A stretch of 64,000 nt of DNA from Pseudomonas costantinii. Its GTDB lineage: Bacteria; Pseudomonadota; Gammaproteobacteria; Pseudomonadales; Pseudomonadaceae. Shown piece after piece: positions 29,277-36,420 of this stretch (position 1 is its first letter; each line of letters begins with the position of its first letter). The stretch is from positions 1 to 64,000 of the forward strand of contig NZ_MDDR01000003.1 in the NCBI RefSeq assembly GCF_001870435.1, given 5' to 3'. Position numbers and translations under genes: made by a program. The notes beneath the pieces are model-generated. The model worked only from the letters and a program-made list of their open reading frames with translations, had not been told where the DNA came from and made no database searches.

Positions 29277-29858
29277 ATGCACAGCGAGTCGATTCGTTAT
29301 CTGATCGTGCCGGGCTGGCAAGGATCGCCAGAAGATCATTGGCAAAGTCATTGGCAGAACAGCCTGCCCAACAGTGCGCGCGTGGAGCAGGCCGATTGGC
29401 TGACCCCGCGCCGCGAAGACTGGGTGGCCGCGCTGGCCGAGGCCATCGCCGCCGACAGTACTCCCGTTATCCTGATCGCCCACAGCCTGGGCTGCATCAC
29501 CGTTGCCCATTGGGCTGCCACCGCTCCCGTGCAGTTTTTGCGTCAAGTACGCGGCGCCTTGCTGGTGGCCCCGGCGGATGTCGAACGCCCTGCCTGCTCA
29601 CCGGCCTTACGTAACTTTGCGCCGATTCCGACCCATCTGTTGCCGTTTCCCAGCCAGGTCGTCAGTTCCGACAACGACAGCGCCGTCAGCGCCCCCCGGG
29701 CCCTGGAATTGGCGCGTTACTGGGGCGCCGAAGCCGGCATTTTGTCCGGTGCCGGCCATATCAATGTGAAGTCCGGTCACCAGCGCTGGGAGCAGGGCTT
29801 CGCTTACCTCTATCGCCTGCAAAACCGCCTCGAGCATCATGCTCGGCGCAGTGCCTAA
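29277..29858 (+). CDS. RBBP9/YdeN-family serine hydrolase
   Basis: A 193-aa alpha/beta hydrolase. The family start is YLIVPGWQGSPEDHWQSHW; the nucleophile Ser lies in AHSLGC (near residue 71); Asp is probably in SSDNDS (near 136); His is in GAGHIN (near 161). GGAGG lies 10 bases before the ATG. It precedes the SfnR-like gene by 49 bases and is probably cotranscribed. A homologue sits after tonB2-exbBD in P. aeruginosa, as I recall. Substrate unknown. Confidence 0.88.
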   Translation: MHSESIRYLIVPGWQGSPEDHWQSHWQNSLPNSARVEQADWLTPRREDWVAALAEAIAADSTPVILIAHSLGCITVAHWAATAPVQFLRQVRGALLVAPADVERPACSPALRNFAPIPTHLLPFPSQVVSSDNDSAVSAPRALELARYWGAEAGILSGAGHINVKSGHQRWEQGFAYLYRLQNRLEHHARRSA

Positions 29859-29907
29859 AAATTTTTCAACGCCCCGTCCCTGAGTGGATTTGGGGCGGGA
29901 GCCTGCC

Positions 29908-30834
29908 ATGAGTCTGCATGAAACCTACGGTCAGCCACTGCTGACCTTCCCCGACGCCGAAAAAAGCCCGTTGAGCATCCGCGCCAAGGCGCTGGTATTC
30001 GTCGACCCGCGTTCGCGCCAACTGCGCGAAGACCTGGAAAGCCTCGCACCGCGTGCCTTGCCCGTGCTGATTCGTGGCGAGACCGGCAGCGGTAAAGAGT
30101 TGCTGGCGCGGCATATCCACCGTGGCAGCGATCGTACCGGGCTGTTTGTCTCGGTCAATTGTGGTGCGATCAGCCCCACTTACGCCGATGCGGAGTTGTT
30201 CGGCTATGCCGCAGGTAGTCACAGTGGTGCGGCCAGCAGCCGGGCGGGGTGGTTTGGTTCGGCCAACGGCGGCACCTTGTACCTGGATGAGATCGGCGAT
30301 TTGCCGTTGCCGATCCAGGTCAAATTGCTCGCGGCCCTAGAGAACCACGAAGTCACCCGCGTCGGTGCCCATCAGCCAAGCCCGGTGGACGTGCGCCTGG
30401 TCGCGGCGACCAGCATCGACTTGGCTCAGGCCGTGGCGGCAGGCAAGTTTCATGAGCGTTTGTTCCACTACTTGAGCGAAGGTCAACTGGACCTGCCTGC
30501 GCTGCGCGAGCGTGTCGGCGACATCCTATCCCTGGCTGAATATTTTCTTGGCATCTACAGCCAGCGTCTGGACCTGCCGGTGCCGCTGATCAGCGATGCC
30601 GCCCAGCACGTGCTGGAACACCACAGTTGGCCGGGCAATACCCGCGAGCTGGAAAACGTTATTCACTTTGCGTTACTGGTCAGCAGCGGCGATGAGATTT
30701 TGCCCGAGCATCTGAATTTGCCGGTGGCGGGTTCGCCGCTGGAGCAAGTGCAGCGGATTTTCGAGAGCGCCAGCCCTGCGGAGCAGGACATATTGCGTAA
30801 ATTTCTGTATGAACAAAATGGAATATCAACGTGA
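29908..30834 (+). CDS. SfnR-like sigma-54 AAA+ activator lacking a recognisable DNA-binding domain
   Basis: A 308-aa AAA+ protein with no receiver domain. Walker A GETGSGKE is at 57-64 and Walker B GGTLYLDEI near 121-129. The canonical GAFTGA loop that contacts sigma-54 reads G103-S-H-S-G-A. Alignment to the PspF segment before LRER places H182 and Y188 where the two arginine fingers usually lie. The chain ends at ILRKFLYEQNGIST, where a Fis-type HTH would normally begin, and neither other frame continues one. SfnR activates dimethyl-sulfone genes in P. putida. This could be a divergent SfnR paralogue acting from solution, or a decaying copy. Confidence 0.8.
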   Translation: MSLHETYGQPLLTFPDAEKSPLSIRAKALVFVDPRSRQLREDLESLAPRALPVLIRGETGSGKELLARHIHRGSDRTGLFVSVNCGAISPTYADAELFGYAAGSHSGAASSRAGWFGSANGGTLYLDEIGDLPLPIQVKLLAALENHEVTRVGAHQPSPVDVRLVAATSIDLAQAVAAGKFHERLFHYLSEGQLDLPALRERVGDILSLAEYFLGIYSQRLDLPVPLISDAAQHVLEHHSWPGNTRELENVIHFALLVSSGDEILPEHLNLPVAGSPLEQVQRIFESASPAEQDILRKFLYEQNGIST

Positions 30835-30961
30835 ATAAAAGATATTGTTCGGGAATAAAAAATCTAGGTATTGTCACTCCCACGCCGCGATAGCACTTCG
30901 CTGGCACACCTCATAAAAATGGTCGTCAGAGACGCCCCCGGAATTCCGATAAGGACACTGC

Positions 30962-31744
30962 ATGAAAAAGGTTCTGTTGTTTACCGCACTGGCGGCTGCC
31001 CTGACTGCAAGCTTTGCGCAAGCCAACGAGAAACTGGTCGTAGCCGCGACCCCAATTCCGCACGCCGAGATCCTTGAGCTGATCAAGCCGACCCTGGCCA
31101 AAGAAGGCGTGGACCTGGAAATCAAAGTCTTCACCGACTATGTACAGCCAAACGTGCAAGTGGCCGAGAAGCGCCTGGACGCCAACTACTTCCAGACCCT
31201 GCCGTACCTGCAAAACTTCAACAAGGGTAAGGGCACCAACCTGGTCACCGTGGTCGGCGTGCACGTTGAACCGTTCGGCGGTTACTCGAAAAAGATCAAA
31301 AATATTTCTGAGCTCAAAGATGGCGCCACCGTTGCCATCCCGAACGAAGGCTCCAACAGCGGCCGCGCTCTGTTGCTGTTGCAGAAGGCTGGTGTGATCA
31401 CCCTGAAAGACCCGACCAATGCCCTGGCCACGCCGAAAGACATCGCCAGCAACCCGAAACACCTGAAATTCAAAGAGCTGGAATCGGCCCTGCTGCCACG
31501 CGTGCTGGACCAGGTTGACCTGGACTTGATCAACACCAACTACGCCTTGGAAGCTGGCCTGAACCCAGCCAAAGACGCACTGATCATTGAAGACTCGAAG
31601 TCGCCATACGTGAACTTCCTGGTCGCCCGCCCAGACAACAAGGACAGCGACGCTATCCAGAAACTGGCCAAAGCCCTGACCAGCCCGGAAGTCAAAGCCT
31701 TCATCGACAAGAAGTACAACGGCGCTGTAGTGCCTGCGTTCTGA
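30962..31744 (+). CDS. MetQ/NlpA-family substrate-binding protein (orphan)
   Basis: A 260-aa periplasmic binding protein of the D-methionine family. The signal peptide ends near AQA-NEKLVV (about residue 21) with no lipobox Cys, so it is soluble rather than a lipoprotein. Family landmarks are TPIPHAEILE, DANYFQTLPYL and NEGSNSGRALLLL. No permease or ATPase is adjacent; it may use MetNI encoded at 44.8-46.6 kb. Confidence 0.92.
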   Translation: MKKVLLFTALAAALTASFAQANEKLVVAATPIPHAEILELIKPTLAKEGVDLEIKVFTDYVQPNVQVAEKRLDANYFQTLPYLQNFNKGKGTNLVTVVGVHVEPFGGYSKKIKNISELKDGATVAIPNEGSNSGRALLLLQKAGVITLKDPTNALATPKDIASNPKHLKFKELESALLPRVLDQVDLDLINTNYALEAGLNPAKDALIIEDSKSPYVNFLVARPDNKDSDAIQKLAKALTSPEVKAFIDKKYNGAVVPAF

Positions 31745-32012: not shown

Positions 32013-32218
32013 TCGTTCCCTCGAATCATTGACCCCCTACCATAGCCGTCACCCAGCAAACCCGCGAATCCGGGGGTTATCTTTTTGGGTGATATCAATA
32101 TGCTATTTGGGTATTTAAATTTTACTTTTTATACCTTTAAAGTTCGCGCTACCCGGCGTTACCCACGCCGGATTGAACTGCGCTCGCTGCATTACCCTTG
32201 CGGCGATATGGACTGCAA

Positions 32219-32884
32219 ATGACCTTCGATTTCGCATTTATCCTCAGCACCTTGCCGGCGTTTCTCAAGGCCGTGGGGGTGACGCTGCAAGTGGGCCTGA
32301 TCGCCATTGCCACCTCGTTGCTGGTGGCGCTGATCAACGCGGCGCTGCTGGTGTTTCGCACGCCGTACCTGTCGCGCCTGGTGGCGTTGTATGTGGAGCT
32401 GGCGCGTAACACGCCGCTGCTGATCCAACTGTTCTTCGTGTACTTCGCCTTGCCGGCCCTGGGTTTCAATATCTCTGGGTTCTGGGCGGCTATCATCACC
32501 ATGACCTTTCTGGGTGGCGCCTACCTCACCGAGGTGCTGCGCGCCGGTGTGGAAGCGGTGCCGTTGGCGCAGATCGAGTCGGGCAAATCCATCGGCTTGT
32601 CTGACTGGCAGTTGTTGCGCCACGTGATCCTGCCCCAGGCCGGCATCCTCAGCCTGCCTGCGCTGTTCGCCAATTTCATCTTCCTGCTCAAGGAGACCAC
32701 CGTGGTCTCCGCCGTGGCGGTGCCGGAGATTCTCTACACCATCAAGAGCTACATCGCCCTCTACTACAAGACCTACGAAATGCTCGCCGTGCTGACGTTG
32801 ATTTGCGTGCTGCTGTTTTTGCCGCTGTCGCTGCTGCTCAGCCGCCTGGAAAGGAGGCTCCAGCATGGCCAGTTCGGGTCTTGA
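32219..32884 (+). CDS. Polar amino acid ABC permease, first subunit
   Basis: A 221-aa HisM/GlnP-type permease with about five helices and the contact loop GVEAVPLAQIESGKSIGLSDW. The motif ARNTPLLIQLFFVYFALP is typical. I start at ATG 32219, not at the upstream TTG. Its last 20 bases overlap the next permease gene. Confidence 0.9.
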   Translation: MTFDFAFILSTLPAFLKAVGVTLQVGLIAIATSLLVALINAALLVFRTPYLSRLVALYVELARNTPLLIQLFFVYFALPALGFNISGFWAAIITMTFLGGAYLTEVLRAGVEAVPLAQIESGKSIGLSDWQLLRHVILPQAGILSLPALFANFIFLLKETTVVSAVAVPEILYTIKSYIALYYKTYEMLAVLTLICVLLFLPLSLLLSRLERRLQHGQFGS

Positions 32885-33524
32885 GTTGTTGTGGGTGTCG
32901 TTGCCGCAGTTGGGCAAGGGCGCTGCGCAAACCCTGTCGATTTCTTTTTTGAGCATCGCCTTCAGCACCGTTGGCGGCGTGTTGTATGGCGTGCTGCGCA
33001 CCTTGAATAACAAGGCGATCAACCTGGTGCTGCGGATTTACCTGGAGCTGTTCCGGGCGATTCCGGTGCTGGTGTGGTTGTACCTGCTGTTTTTCGGCCT
33101 GCCGATTTTCTTCGGGTTGAGCATCCCGAGCTTCTGGTGCGCAGTGCTGGTGCTGTCGTTGTGGGGCGCTAGCGAGGTGGGCGAAGTGGTGCGCGGTGCG
33201 TTGCATTCGCTGCCGCGAGGCCAGCGTGAGGCTGGGTTGTCGATTGGCCTGTCCGACCCGCAGTTGTACGGCTACGTGCTGCTGCCCCAGGCGCTGAAAC
33301 GCATGACGCCACCGACCATCAACGTCTACACGCGGATCATCAAGACCAGCTCGCTGGCGGTGCTGATCGGCGTGGTGGACGTGATCAAGGTCGGCCAGCA
33401 AATCATCGAACGCACCTATGAGTCGGTACTGATCTACGGCGTGCTATTCCTGTTTTTCTTCTTTATTTGCTACCCGTTGTCGGCCGCCTCCAAGGTGCTG
33501 GAACGGCGCTGGGCCCAAGCATGA
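32865..33524 (+). CDS. Polar amino acid ABC permease, second subunit
   Basis: A 219-aa permease with the motif LFRAIPVLVWLYLLFFGLP and the EAA-like loop LPRGQREAGLSIGLSDPQLY. Forms a heterodimeric channel with the preceding subunit. The stop overlaps the ATPase start (ATGA). Confidence 0.9.
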   Translation: MASSGLELLWVSLPQLGKGAAQTLSISFLSIAFSTVGGVLYGVLRTLNNKAINLVLRIYLELFRAIPVLVWLYLLFFGLPIFFGLSIPSFWCAVLVLSLWGASEVGEVVRGALHSLPRGQREAGLSIGLSDPQLYGYVLLPQALKRMTPPTINVYTRIIKTSSLAVLIGVVDVIKVGQQIIERTYESVLIYGVLFLFFFFICYPLSAASKVLERRWAQA

Positions 33525-34297
33525 GTGGATTGATCGAGTTCCAGGGTTTCAATAAATTTTTCGGCGAACAGCAGGTGCTCAAGGGCATCGACCTGAGTGT
33601 GCAAAGCGGCGAAGTGGTGGTGATCCTCGGCCCCAGCGGTTGCGGCAAAAGCACCTTGTTGCGCTGCCTCAACGGTTTGGAAGTGGCCCACAGCGGCAGC
33701 CTGCGCTTCGCCGGTAAAGAGTTGTTGAACAAGGCCACCGACTGGCGCCAAGTGCGCCAGGACATCGGCATGGTGTTCCAGAGCTACCACCTGTTCCCGC
33801 ACATGAGCGTGCTCGACAACATCCTGCTCGGCCCGCTGAAAGTGCAAAAGCGCGACCCGCGCGAAGCCCGCGACCAGGCAGAAAAATTGCTGGAGCGCGT
33901 AGGCCTTGCCGACAAGCGCGACGCCTTCCCGCGTCAGCTCTCCGGCGGCCAGCAGCAGCGCATCGCTATCGTCCGCTCGCTGTGCATGAACCCCCAGGTG
34001 ATGCTGTTTGATGAAGTCACCGCCGCCCTCGACCCGGAAATGGTCAAGGAGGTGCTGGAAGTGATCCAGGGCTTGGCGCGCGATGGCATGACCTTGCTGA
34101 TCGTCACCCACGAAATGGCCTTCGCCCGCGCGGTCGCCGACCGCGTGGTGTTTATGGAGGCCGGTCGCATCCTCGAACAAAACACCCCCGAAGAATTCTT
34201 TACGAACCCGCAAACCGCACGCGCGCAGCAGTTCCTGGAGAAGTTCTCCTTTGTTTCAACACTGCCCAAGAAAACCAAGGAACTGGAGCTGATATGA
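33521..34297 (+). CDS. Polar amino acid ABC ATPase
   Basis: A 258-aa GlnQ/HisP-type ATPase. Walker A GPSGCGKS is near residue 36, signature LSGGQQQR near 138, Walker B VMLFDEVTAALDP near 158, and H-loop THE near 195. I start at the ATG overlapping the permease stop. Its own stop overlaps the next start by 4 bases. Confidence 0.93.
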   Translation: MSGLIEFQGFNKFFGEQQVLKGIDLSVQSGEVVVILGPSGCGKSTLLRCLNGLEVAHSGSLRFAGKELLNKATDWRQVRQDIGMVFQSYHLFPHMSVLDNILLGPLKVQKRDPREARDQAEKLLERVGLADKRDAFPRQLSGGQQQRIAIVRSLCMNPQVMLFDEVTAALDPEMVKEVLEVIQGLARDGMTLLIVTHEMAFARAVADRVVFMEAGRILEQNTPEEFFTNPQTARAQQFLEKFSFVSTLPKKTKELELI

Positions 34298-35154
34298 AAA
34301 CTGCCAAGTTGTTATTCCCATTGTTTGCCCTCGCATTGCTGGCTGGCTGCAATAAAAAGGCCGAAGAGCCCGCAAAACCAGTTGCTGCTGCGGCGAGCTA
34401 CATCGACAAAATCAAGGCGCGCGACAAGCTGATCGTCGGCGTGTTTACCGACAAACCGCCGTTCGGCTTTGTGAACGAAGCGGGTCGTTATGTTGGCTTT
34501 GATACCGACATCGGCCGCCAATTTGCCAAGGACTTGCTGGGTGATGAAAACAAGGTTGAGTTCGTTGCCGTGGAACCGGCCAGCCGTATTCCGTTCCTGC
34601 AAAGCGACAAGGTCGACCTGATCCTCGCCAACATGACCGTGACGCCTGAGCGCAAAGAAGCGGTGGACTTCACCAACCCCAACCTGAAAGTTGCGGTACA
34701 GGCTTTGGTGCCGAAGGACAGCGCGGTGAAAAGCCTGGATGACTTGGCCACCCGCACCACCATCGTGACCACCGGCACCACCGCCGATATCTGGCTGACC
34801 AAGAACCACCCGGATTGGAAACTGCTCAAGTTCGAGAAAAACTCCGAGTCGTTGCAAGCGTTGTCCGCTGGCCGTGGTGATGCTTACGCGCAAGACAACC
34901 TGGTGCTGTTCAGCTGGGCCAAGCAGAACCCGGGCTACCGCGTGCTGGATCAGAAACTCGGTGATGAAGCGCCGATTGCTCCGGCGGTGAAGAAGGGCAA
35001 TATCGAACTGCGCGACTGGGTGAATGCCGAGTTGGCGAAGCTGGGTGAGGAGAAGTTTTTGCTCAAGCTTTACGACCAGTACGTGCGTAAAGAGCTGAGC
35101 GATGACACCAAGCCTGAGAGTGTGATTGTTGAGGGCGGTAAGTGGCAGGGCTGA
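34294..35154 (+). CDS. Polar amino acid-binding lipoprotein
   Basis: A 286-aa SBP_bac_3 binding protein with a lipobox (ALLAGC, Cys near residue 18), so it is anchored to the inner membrane. Family pattern: GVFTDKPPFGFVNEAGRYVGFDTDIGR. Last gene of a tightly overlapping four-gene operon. Its position in a sulfur region makes a sulfur amino acid possible, but the pocket does not reveal it. Confidence 0.9.
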   Translation: MKTAKLLFPLFALALLAGCNKKAEEPAKPVAAAASYIDKIKARDKLIVGVFTDKPPFGFVNEAGRYVGFDTDIGRQFAKDLLGDENKVEFVAVEPASRIPFLQSDKVDLILANMTVTPERKEAVDFTNPNLKVAVQALVPKDSAVKSLDDLATRTTIVTTGTTADIWLTKNHPDWKLLKFEKNSESLQALSAGRGDAYAQDNLVLFSWAKQNPGYRVLDQKLGDEAPIAPAVKKGNIELRDWVNAELAKLGEEKFLLKLYDQYVRKELSDDTKPESVIVEGGKWQG

Positions 35155-35253: not shown

Positions 35254-36420
35254 CTATTCGGGCCATTGCCAAGCCGGCGCATCCAAAATCCCCTGCCCAA
35301 CAATCTGGGTCTGCCCCAGCACCTTCTCCAACACAATCGAATTACACCCTTCATCCTGTTGCAACGCCGCAATCAACCGACTGGCGTGGGACACCACCCA
35401 CACCTGACAGTGTTGGGACACCTGAATAATCAAGCGCGCCAACGCAGGCAGCAAATCCGGATGCAAGCTGGTCTCCGGTTCGTTCAGCACCATCATCGTC
35501 GGTGGCCTCGGCGTCAGCAGTGCCGCGATCAGCAGCAGGTAACGCAAGGTGCCGTCCGATAACTCCGCCGCTGATAACGGCCGCAGCAAACCTTCCTGAT
35601 AAAACTCAATGGCAAAGCGCGCACCCTGCAACGGCTGGATTTCCAGGCGCGCCCCCGGAAACGCATCGCTTACCGCCCGTTGCAAGGCCTCGGGATCGCC
35701 AATTTCGCGGATGGTCTGCAACGCCGCCGCCAGGTCACGCCCATCGTGATGCAGCACCGGCGTGCGCGTGCCCAACTGCGGTTGGCGTACGGGTGCATCG
35801 GCGTCGCTGCGAAAGTGATCATAGAAGCGCCAGCGACGAATGCTTTCCCGCAGCACCAGCACTTCCGGCGAACCGCGTAAACTGCCGACCTGGTCGAACA
35901 GGCTGCTGTACTCCGGCGTGTGTTGGGCCAAAACATCCCAGGCGCGACCGTCGCGGGCGCGGATCATTGGGCCTGAGCGCTGCACCAGCAGGCTGGCCGG
36001 TCGGTACAGGTGGCCGGCCCAGATGCATTCTTTTTTGATCTCCGGGTCCAGGATAAAAGCGGACATAGCTTTTGGCGGCAAGCCCAAGGAGATGGCGTAG
36101 CTGAAATCTTCGCCGGCGAACCCCAGTCGCAAGCGTTTATTGGGCTGTGGAACCGCCGCCCGTACCGCCACTTCACCATTGGGCATGCGTTGGTTGATGG
36201 TTTCCGGCCCGGCCCAGAACGTAGAATCCAGCCCGCCTTCACGCGCCAGCGCATTGATCACCCCGCCCTGGGCGGTTTCCGCCAGCAGGCGCAAGGCGCG
36301 GTACAAGTTGGACTTGCCGCTGCCATTGGGGCCGGTGACCAGGTTCAGTCGGTCCAGGGGCACCACTAATTTATTGATCGAGCGGTAGTTGGCTACCGCG
36401 AGGGTCTTGAGCATGGGCAT
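35254..36420 (-). CDS. Orphan AAA ATPase (COG4637/AAA_21-like)
   Basis: A 388-aa SMC/RecF-type ATPase. Walker A GPNGSGKS is near residue 31, the signature-like LSDGTLRYLLL near 293, Walker B PPTMMVLNEPETSLHP near 315, and the switch His in VVSHASRL near 350. There is no TOPRIM nuclease domain as in OLD and no partner gene alongside. It is divergent from triA. Possible roles are DNA repair or phage defence; I cannot tell which. Confidence 0.8.
   Translation of the reverse strand: MPMLKTLAVANYRSINKLVVPLDRLNLVTGPNGSGKSNLYRALRLLAETAQGGVINALAREGGLDSTFWAGPETINQRMPNGEVAVRAAVPQPNKRLRLGFAGEDFSYAISLGLPPKAMSAFILDPEIKKECIWAGHLYRPASLLVQRSGPMIRARDGRAWDVLAQHTPEYSSLFDQVGSLRGSPEVLVLRESIRRWRFYDHFRSDADAPVRQPQLGTRTPVLHHDGRDLAAALQTIREIGDPEALQRAVSDAFPGARLEIQPLQGARFAIEFYQEGLLRPLSAAELSDGTLRYLLLIAALLTPRPPTMMVLNEPETSLHPDLLPALARLIIQVSQHCQVWVVSHASRLIAALQQDEGCNSIVLEKVLGQTQIVGQGILDAPAWQWPE

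Follow-up and report, generated by a model that had tools for sequence, protein, structure and literature searches.

The pEBP locus

The window, by which we mean the entire 64,000 bp stretch of Pseudomonas costantinii DNA that was analysed, contains a forward-strand open reading frame that begins with an ATG at 29908, ends with a stop codon at 30832-30834, and codes for 308 amino acids; the coordinates given in the initial annotation (29908..30834) were confirmed. We refer to this gene as pEBP (Table 1). An in-frame GTG upstream at 29884 is not favoured as the start, with methionine present at the ATG position in 114 of 120 orthologs.

The product is a homolog of the bEBPs, or σ54 activators. 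Pfam Sigma54_activat matches residues 33-193 (182 bits; cut-off 20.2), AAA_lid_14 matches residues 200-273, and nothing is matched C-terminal of the lid. The AlphaFold model (pLDDT 83, falling below 50 in residues 1-28) has the bEBP AAA+ fold, and its best structural match is FlrC (6luf; Z 30.1), with a residue offset of 103. Pfam and the model agree that pEBP consists of an AAA+ core and lid only, without either an N-terminal regulatory domain or a DNA-binding domain. The initial annotation had noted the absence of a Fis HTH at the C-terminus, and this is upheld. The Pfam scan alone is no proof of the loss, because no HTH model matched in the full-length relatives L004 and L005 either, and it is the tail length and the alignment that establish it: the chain beyond residue 271 is 37 aa in pEBP and 3-69 aa in the 124 members of its family, compared with 84-103 aa in 17 SfnR-type proteins.

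Table 1. Features of the pEBP locus, in window coordinates; residue numbers are those of pEBP, and fractions refer to the 124 family members.
Feature	Coordinates	Strand	Basis
Serine hydrolase (Pfam Ser_hydrolase PF06821), immediately 5' of pEBP	29277..29858	+	Pfam
pEBP, HTH-less SfnR-type pseudo-bEBP gene	29908..30834	+	ORF, Pfam, orthologs
N-terminal segment, residues 20-31, SPLSIRAKALVF; near-invariant, common to the full-length sister clade	29965..30000	+	Alignment
Walker A, residues 57-64, GETGSGKE; G57, E58, G60, G62, K63 and E64 each 124/124	30076..30099	+	Alignment
Switch asparagine equivalent, N84; asparagine in 109 members, serine in 15	30157..30159	+	Alignment
L1 loop, residues 103-108, GSHSGA where bEBPs have GAFTGA	30214..30231	+	Alignment
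G117-S118, both 124/124; G117 replaces the loop-coupling glutamate	30256..30261	+	Alignment
Walker B, D127-E128, 124/124	30286..30291	+	Alignment
R-finger helix, residues 181-189, FHERLFHYL; H182, R184, H187 and Y188 replace R, D, Y and R	30448..30474	+	Alignment
Sensor II, R246, 124/124; corresponds to FlrC R349 by structural offset	30643..30645	+	Alignment, FlrC match
C-terminal tail, residues 272-308; varies in length and sequence between orthologs and is not long enough to hold the HTH region seen in relatives	30721..30831	+	Alignment
AT-rich conserved element 5' of metQ, two AATAAAA...TATTGT-like units	30812..30878	+	Wider limits by eye
metQ, MetQ/NlpA-family methionine-type binding lipoprotein, 3' of pEBP	30962..31744	+	Pfam

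Distribution of pEBP

Matches to pEBP at E<=1e-80 are present in 182 of 199 same-genus genomes (its own included), or about nine tenths of the sampled species; one of them, in G096, is interrupted by a contig end. The gene is thus not universal in the genus, and the 17 genomes without a match at this threshold contain only more distant bEBPs, with a best E value of 1e-78 (an SfnR-type protein in G068) and 3e-61 or weaker in the rest. At the level of the order, which was sparsely sampled and searched with a strict threshold, 12 of 293 genomes match at 1e-75 (own included), 11 of which are in the family of the window. An order-level match outside the family (L171) was rejected as a pEBP, as it has GAFTGA, the arginines and HTH length. 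The best 80 of 514 relatives in a scan of named genomes are all titled Pseudomonas.

From the 182 matching genomes we read 120 orthologs, consisting of the window copy, the 29 next best, 30 of 35 further matches, and 60 that were hand-picked; left out from the 35 were the four lowest-scoring (G078, G063, G064 and G008) and the partial G096. Four extra members were added from beyond this genus sample, three from genomes of another genus in the family, by inference the aeruginosa group, and one from a P. aeruginosa record (L184). All of the 120 ortholog frames give at least 273 residues, that of L128 being open only from about residue 13, and there is no longer version of pEBP among them. The suggestion that the window copy is a simple truncation of an intact gene in related strains is therefore not sustained among these 120 orthologs.

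Activator motifs lost and retained

The 124 pEBP members were compared with 22 bEBPs, 17 of SfnR type and five others, of which eight are from the same genome as the window. The Walker A and Walker B motifs, which the initial annotation described as kept, are indeed intact (GETGSGKE and DE), as is the Sensor II arginine. The nucleotide site does show some variation, with serine substituting in 15 of 124 members at N84, presumably the position of the PspF switch asparagine.

The L1 loop reads GSHSGA at residues 103-108, as first reported. At this position the comparison bEBPs have GAFTGA (15), GAFSGA (3), GAYTGA (3) or GSFTGA (1), and none of the 38 loop types found in the 124 members is the same as any of these four. 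Loop length is retained in nearly all members, and the commonest residues at position 105 include histidine (73), tyrosine (24), glutamine (21), phenylalanine (3) and serine (2). Four members have near-canonical loops (GAYSGA in two, GSYSGA in one, GSFSGA in one), every letter of which occurs at its position in the 22 bEBPs, and the loss is thus not equally deep in all members. A change absent from the initial annotation affects the residues G117-S118, which we take to be the equivalents of PspF E97-R98, such that the glutamate coupled to the loop has been lost throughout the family.

A similar pattern is seen in the R-finger helix. Residues H182 and Y188 do occupy the arginine-finger positions, as initially proposed, and arginine is present at both in 22 of 22 aligned bEBPs and in none of the 124 members. 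Column 182 contains H in 71, N in 35, S in 7, D in 7 and L in 4 members, and column 188 is tyrosine in every member. The aspartate of column 184 is replaced by R in 118, G in five and Q in one, and glycine is found in the four members from outside the genus sample. Column 187, also not mentioned initially, is tyrosine in all 22 bEBPs and variable in pEBP members (H 81, Q 19 and R 11 being commonest). By the FlrC offset, the 'trans-acting' Y290 maps to column 187, which is lost, and the 'cis' R349 to R246, which is kept; both labels are taken from the titles of the PDB entries. On these alignments the residues that serve a subunit's own nucleotide are retained, and those predicted to be offered to the neighbouring subunit and to σ54 are lost.

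The possibility that these substitutions are a normal feature of SfnR proteins was ruled out, since the 17 SfnR-type and five other bEBPs retain both the loop and the arginines. The idea that they define a conserved subfamily is instead borne out by the loop, positions 182 and 188, and the tail in all 124 members.

Origin and selection

The relationships of pEBP were examined in a tree of 70 proteins that includes 48 of its members (44 of the 120 orthologs and the four extra ones). These 48 form one side of a branch with support of 100/100 and a stem of 1.16 changes per column. Their sister group is the full-length GAFSGA clade of L004, L172 and L173 (support 98/89), and pEBP lies outside SfnR as a clade of its own; an SfnB-like neighbour was used to infer which row corresponds to the published SfnR. 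The tree program flags eight long end branches, those of five outgroup rows, L171, L080 and L184. Descent from an SfnR-type bEBP, as the initial annotation had it, is well supported.

Substitution rates were calculated by the Nei-Gojobori method, using either the window as the single reference or nearest pairs. Relative to the window, pEBP has a median dN/dS of 0.091 (n=119) with a maximum of 0.209, and in 37 pairs with dS under 1 the values range from 0.017 to 0.149. The median is close to those of both of its neighbours, which are 0.088 for the hydrolase (n=116) and 0.118 for metQ (n=101). This rate, together with open frames of at least 273 residues in all 120 orthologs, is not that of a pseudogene. 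The single clade and the low dN/dS values therefore argue against decay and for a single ancient change with strong constraint thereafter, and pEBP is probably not a broken gene but a regulator put to a new use.

Genomic neighbourhood and the link to sulfur

The serine hydrolase gene lies directly upstream of pEBP, on the same strand, in all 120 genus orthologs, with a gap of 13-193 nt between aligned ends. Because they share a strand and are separated by a short gap, the two genes are probably co-transcribed. In the four members beyond the genus sample the hydrolase is outside the flank of pEBP, and in the three genomes of another genus a homolog is located near exbD, apart from pEBP. The metQ gene is downstream of pEBP in 103 of the 120 orthologs (the other 17 having no metQ within the flank that was read) and upstream of it in the four members from outside the genus sample. 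From these positions metQ accompanies pEBP in both branches of the deepest split in the clade, and the hydrolase in one. At the L168 locus a Cys/Met-metabolism PLP enzyme is situated between metQ and pEBP.

Neither metN nor metI was recognised among the genes scanned beside the window metQ, which may thus be an orphan binding protein. We also note an ABC transporter of the polar amino-acid (cystine/glutamine) type at 32198-35154, 3' of metQ.

The full-length relatives have sulfur genes nearby as well. The sister protein L004 (1501-2574 of the L004 locus; contig C12 of the same genome), from the clade with the GAFSGA loop and FRLDLFYRI helix, is preceded by metN- and metI-like genes, and L172, of the same clade, adjoins an alkanesulfonate monooxygenase-like gene. 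L005, which is SfnR by context, adjoins an SfnB/DszC-like gene. Of the NCBIfam names for these neighbours, MetI alone is above its curated cut-off (217.8 vs 212), the others being best hits below cut-off. A sulfur link is visible in all three clades examined, each full-length clade being represented by between one and a few loci, and the L004/L172/L173 clade is apparently a further sulfur-linked activator, separate from SfnR.

The AT-rich element upstream of metQ has a strict core (30852-30875) that is present in 79 of the 103 metQ upstream regions. Its 5' end overlaps the final codons of pEBP, which may be why the proteins of close relatives end in NGIST. A scan for σ54 promoters, requiring GG and GC at -24/-12 and a match to 9 or more of the 12 consensus bases, found no consistent site, with 13 in 120 regions upstream of the hydrolase gene, three in 120 upstream of pEBP, and one in 103 upstream of metQ; single shuffled controls gave 4, 1 and 3, respectively. 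Eight of the 13 sites before the hydrolase gene represent a single, almost identical sequence shared by close relatives of the window.

Expression evidence for a role in sulfur metabolism comes from one table in one paper. We take the P. aeruginosa gene PA3932 to be the ortholog of the L184 copy, an assignment that is helped by the gene order in CP109682 (cioAB, MetQ, the pEBP copy, betT). The mention of 'cioA/PA3931' in an abstract supports the neighbourhood match (PMC6588701). A table for a PA2504 deletion in P. aeruginosa includes both PA3931 (-2.58) and PA3932 (-0.97) among its sulfur genes (PMC8466066). PA3932 is also an entry in a microarray table (PMC6546240), and was not found in the searchable main text of an eLife atlas.

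A proposed role for pEBP

Given the observed homology to bEBPs, the missing parts, the intact cis site, the single origin in the tree, purifying selection and the gene neighbourhood, a reasonable scenario is that a sulfur-linked activator of SfnR type in an ancestor of Pseudomonas lost its DNA-binding domain and σ54 loop, along with the loop-coupling glutamate and the residues given to the ATP site of its neighbour, after which the product came under strong constraint. The present-day protein would still bind ATP or ADP, and would be unable to activate σ54 promoters or to hydrolyse nucleotide in its own ring by the normal route. A direct DNA-binding route looks closed in the absence of an HTH, unless pEBP rides on another protein. 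Instead, it would act by protein-protein contact, switched by the bound nucleotide, to modulate the acquisition of sulfur or methionine. Candidate partners include the AAA+ ring of another bEBP (as with FleT), the hydrolase, and a metabolic enzyme.

We assign a probability of roughly 55% to the reading that pEBP is a nucleotide-binding, σ54-incompetent pseudo-activator acting by protein contact in sulfur/methionine acquisition. More tentatively, and with the odds somewhat against it, there could be an entire class of AAA+ proteins derived from σ54 activators, present in most of Pseudomonas, that contacts neither DNA nor σ54 and has no ring hydrolysis, reads nucleotide (or a ligand through the near-invariant N-terminal segment), and controls sulfur/methionine acquisition by protein contact.

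Alternative explanations

The initial annotation raised the prospect that pEBP is a dominant partner of a full-length SfnR, and full-length SfnR-type proteins were found elsewhere in this genome (L005 and L006), in addition to the GAFSGA paralog L004. When SfnR is scored with L005 as the query at E<=1e-110 it is present in 136 of the 199 same-genus genomes, 135 of which contain both proteins. SfnR only is found in one (G068), pEBP only in 47, and neither in 16. The 47 SfnR-negative genomes with pEBP were rescored, and the best SfnR match listed for them is 6e-96, from a 90% fragment in G058, with all others 1e-83 or weaker. Besides pEBP, the matches listed in these genomes are mostly ORFs of at least 446 aa matching the AAA+ core, together with one ORF of 330 aa at the edge of a G021 contig. 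At E<=1e-80 the pEBP query finds just one match in 46 of the 47; G079 has a pair with the same score, on different contigs, and no GAFSGA paralog is therefore apparent in any of them.

Constraint on pEBP was also compared in the presence and absence of SfnR, with 29 of the 47 SfnR-negative genomes included among the 120 that were read. Relaxed constraint without SfnR is not borne out relative to the hydrolase gene, the ratio of pEBP to hydrolase constraint showing no detectable difference where SfnR is absent or present (1.03 vs 0.86, p=0.26; 21 vs 64 pairs), despite a higher raw pEBP dN/dS in SfnR-negative pairs (0.070 vs 0.039, p=0.0016). Since 47 of 199 genomes keep pEBP without SfnR at E<=1e-110, and relative constraint does not detectably change, it is unlikely that pEBP is the partner of SfnR in general.

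A narrower version of this idea is that pEBP is a poison or specificity subunit that joins the ring of SfnR or a close relative, in the manner of FleT, and either blocks or redirects it. The kept acceptor site and lost donor residues are how a poison subunit would be expected to look, pEBP is a paralog of the SfnR-type proteins, and bEBP hetero-oligomers are described for FleQ/FleT, HrpR/HrpS and the VnfA paralogs (PMC9542535, PMC11999139). Furthermore, pEBP is carried by 135 of 136 SfnR-positive genomes but 47 of 63 SfnR-negative ones (Fisher p 3e-8, a test that ignores phylogeny), and the difference in raw dN/dS is in the same direction. However, the 47 genomes with neither SfnR nor an apparent GAFSGA paralog, and the lack of a detectable difference in constraint relative to the hydrolase, make this a possibility that we consider improbable, if the strongest of the alternatives.

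We regard as more doubtful the proposal that pEBP is an ATP-gated adaptor or chaperone controlling the neighbouring serine hydrolase. It fits with the invariable position of the hydrolase gene, which in each of the 120 orthologs is directly 5' of pEBP and co-oriented with it, but not with its separate location near exbD in the three genomes from another genus of the family, or with its retention at E<=1e-25 in 11 of the 17 genus genomes that have no pEBP match. Because of these two observations the link is one-sided, and perhaps younger.

R184, which is present in 118 of 124 members, could revive hydrolysis if it served as a displaced arginine finger. In such an unconventional ATPase, the trans site would have been reconstructed from Y188 and R184, and the target remodelled by the ring would be something other than σ54. 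The conservation of Y188 and of the Walker B residue E128 (124/124 for each) is compatible with this, but the four members from outside the genus sample have glycine at 184 and the L1 effector loop drifts through 38 types, and we think it slightly less probable again than control of the hydrolase. Finally, the notion that pEBP is a truncated and decaying SfnR copy, which was among the options in the initial annotation, would explain why several functional parts are missing together, but was rejected as very improbable given the single origin in the tree, the open frames of at least 273 residues in 120 of 120 orthologs, purifying selection with dN/dS about 0.09 (median 0.091, n=119), and the matches in about nine tenths of the sampled species.

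Relationship to known systems

The closest working precedent for pEBP is FleT of Cereibacter (Rhodobacter) sphaeroides, which likewise has the AAA+ domain of a bEBP and neither a regulatory nor a DNA-binding domain. According to one review it is the only known bEBP without both domains (PMC7175178), and it is described as functioning in a hetero-oligomer with FleQ (PMC11999139). The two differ in that FleT has a named partner in flagellar control, whereas no SfnR-type partner was found in 47 of the genomes with pEBP. The nearest homologs, SfnR and the GAFSGA clade (L004, L172 and L173), are about 50-57% identical to pEBP and share its short N-terminus without a sensor domain and its sulfur neighbourhood, but their loop and both arginines are intact, their C-terminal region is of HTH length, and they form separate clades.

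The bEBPs that lack GAFTGA, including the NtrC proteins of Caulobacter and Rhodobacter, VpsR and TyrR, are DNA-binding regulators. Like pEBP they have no functional σ54 loop, and some are reported to be active at σ70 promoters (PMC10274813, PMC3162934). In the NtrC proteins the loop is deleted, whereas nearly all pEBP members keep the loop length and it is the DNA-binding domain that is lost. CtcC of Chlamydia and FlgR of Helicobacter also have no DNA-binding domain, but are counted as functional EBP54s and apparently keep a signal domain (PMC3162934). An HTH is also missing from some accepted bEBPs (PMC3162934). Absence of both the R and D domains (in FleT) and loss of GAFTGA are thus each already known. 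A bEBP family that combines both with loss of the arginine fingers was not found in the open-licence literature, and neither was a study of the pEBP subfamily.

Contact with σ54 and a ring ATPase are the defining properties of bEBPs, most of which also bind DNA. If the proposed reading is correct, a lineage without all three that is nonetheless strongly constrained in most of the Pseudomonas species sampled would illustrate another use of the domain, comparable to that of pseudokinases among kinases. It also provides a warning for annotation, in that the copy in CP109682 is named 'sigma-54-dependent transcriptional regulator' though the parts needed for this are absent, and it offers a testable gene for the control of sulfur acquisition in Pseudomonas.

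Additional observations

The P. aeruginosa copy L184 (CP109682.1 173383-184162) is in a 425-kb record that was deposited as a plasmid, where it is located amid cioAB, betT and tauD; we take these to be chromosomal genes in P. aeruginosa. In the genome of the window the region is present three times, on contigs C3, C5 and C6, with 3924 bases around pEBP being identical, and two other bEBP loci on these contigs are likewise present as three identical copies. The listed contamination of this assembly is 9.18, and the three contigs are probably redundant. Elsewhere in the window, a leftwards-transcribed gene at 35254-36420 codes for a RecF/OLD-like AAA ATPase that weakly matches MAD3, a defence protein, with 63 bits and thus far below the cut-off of 420.
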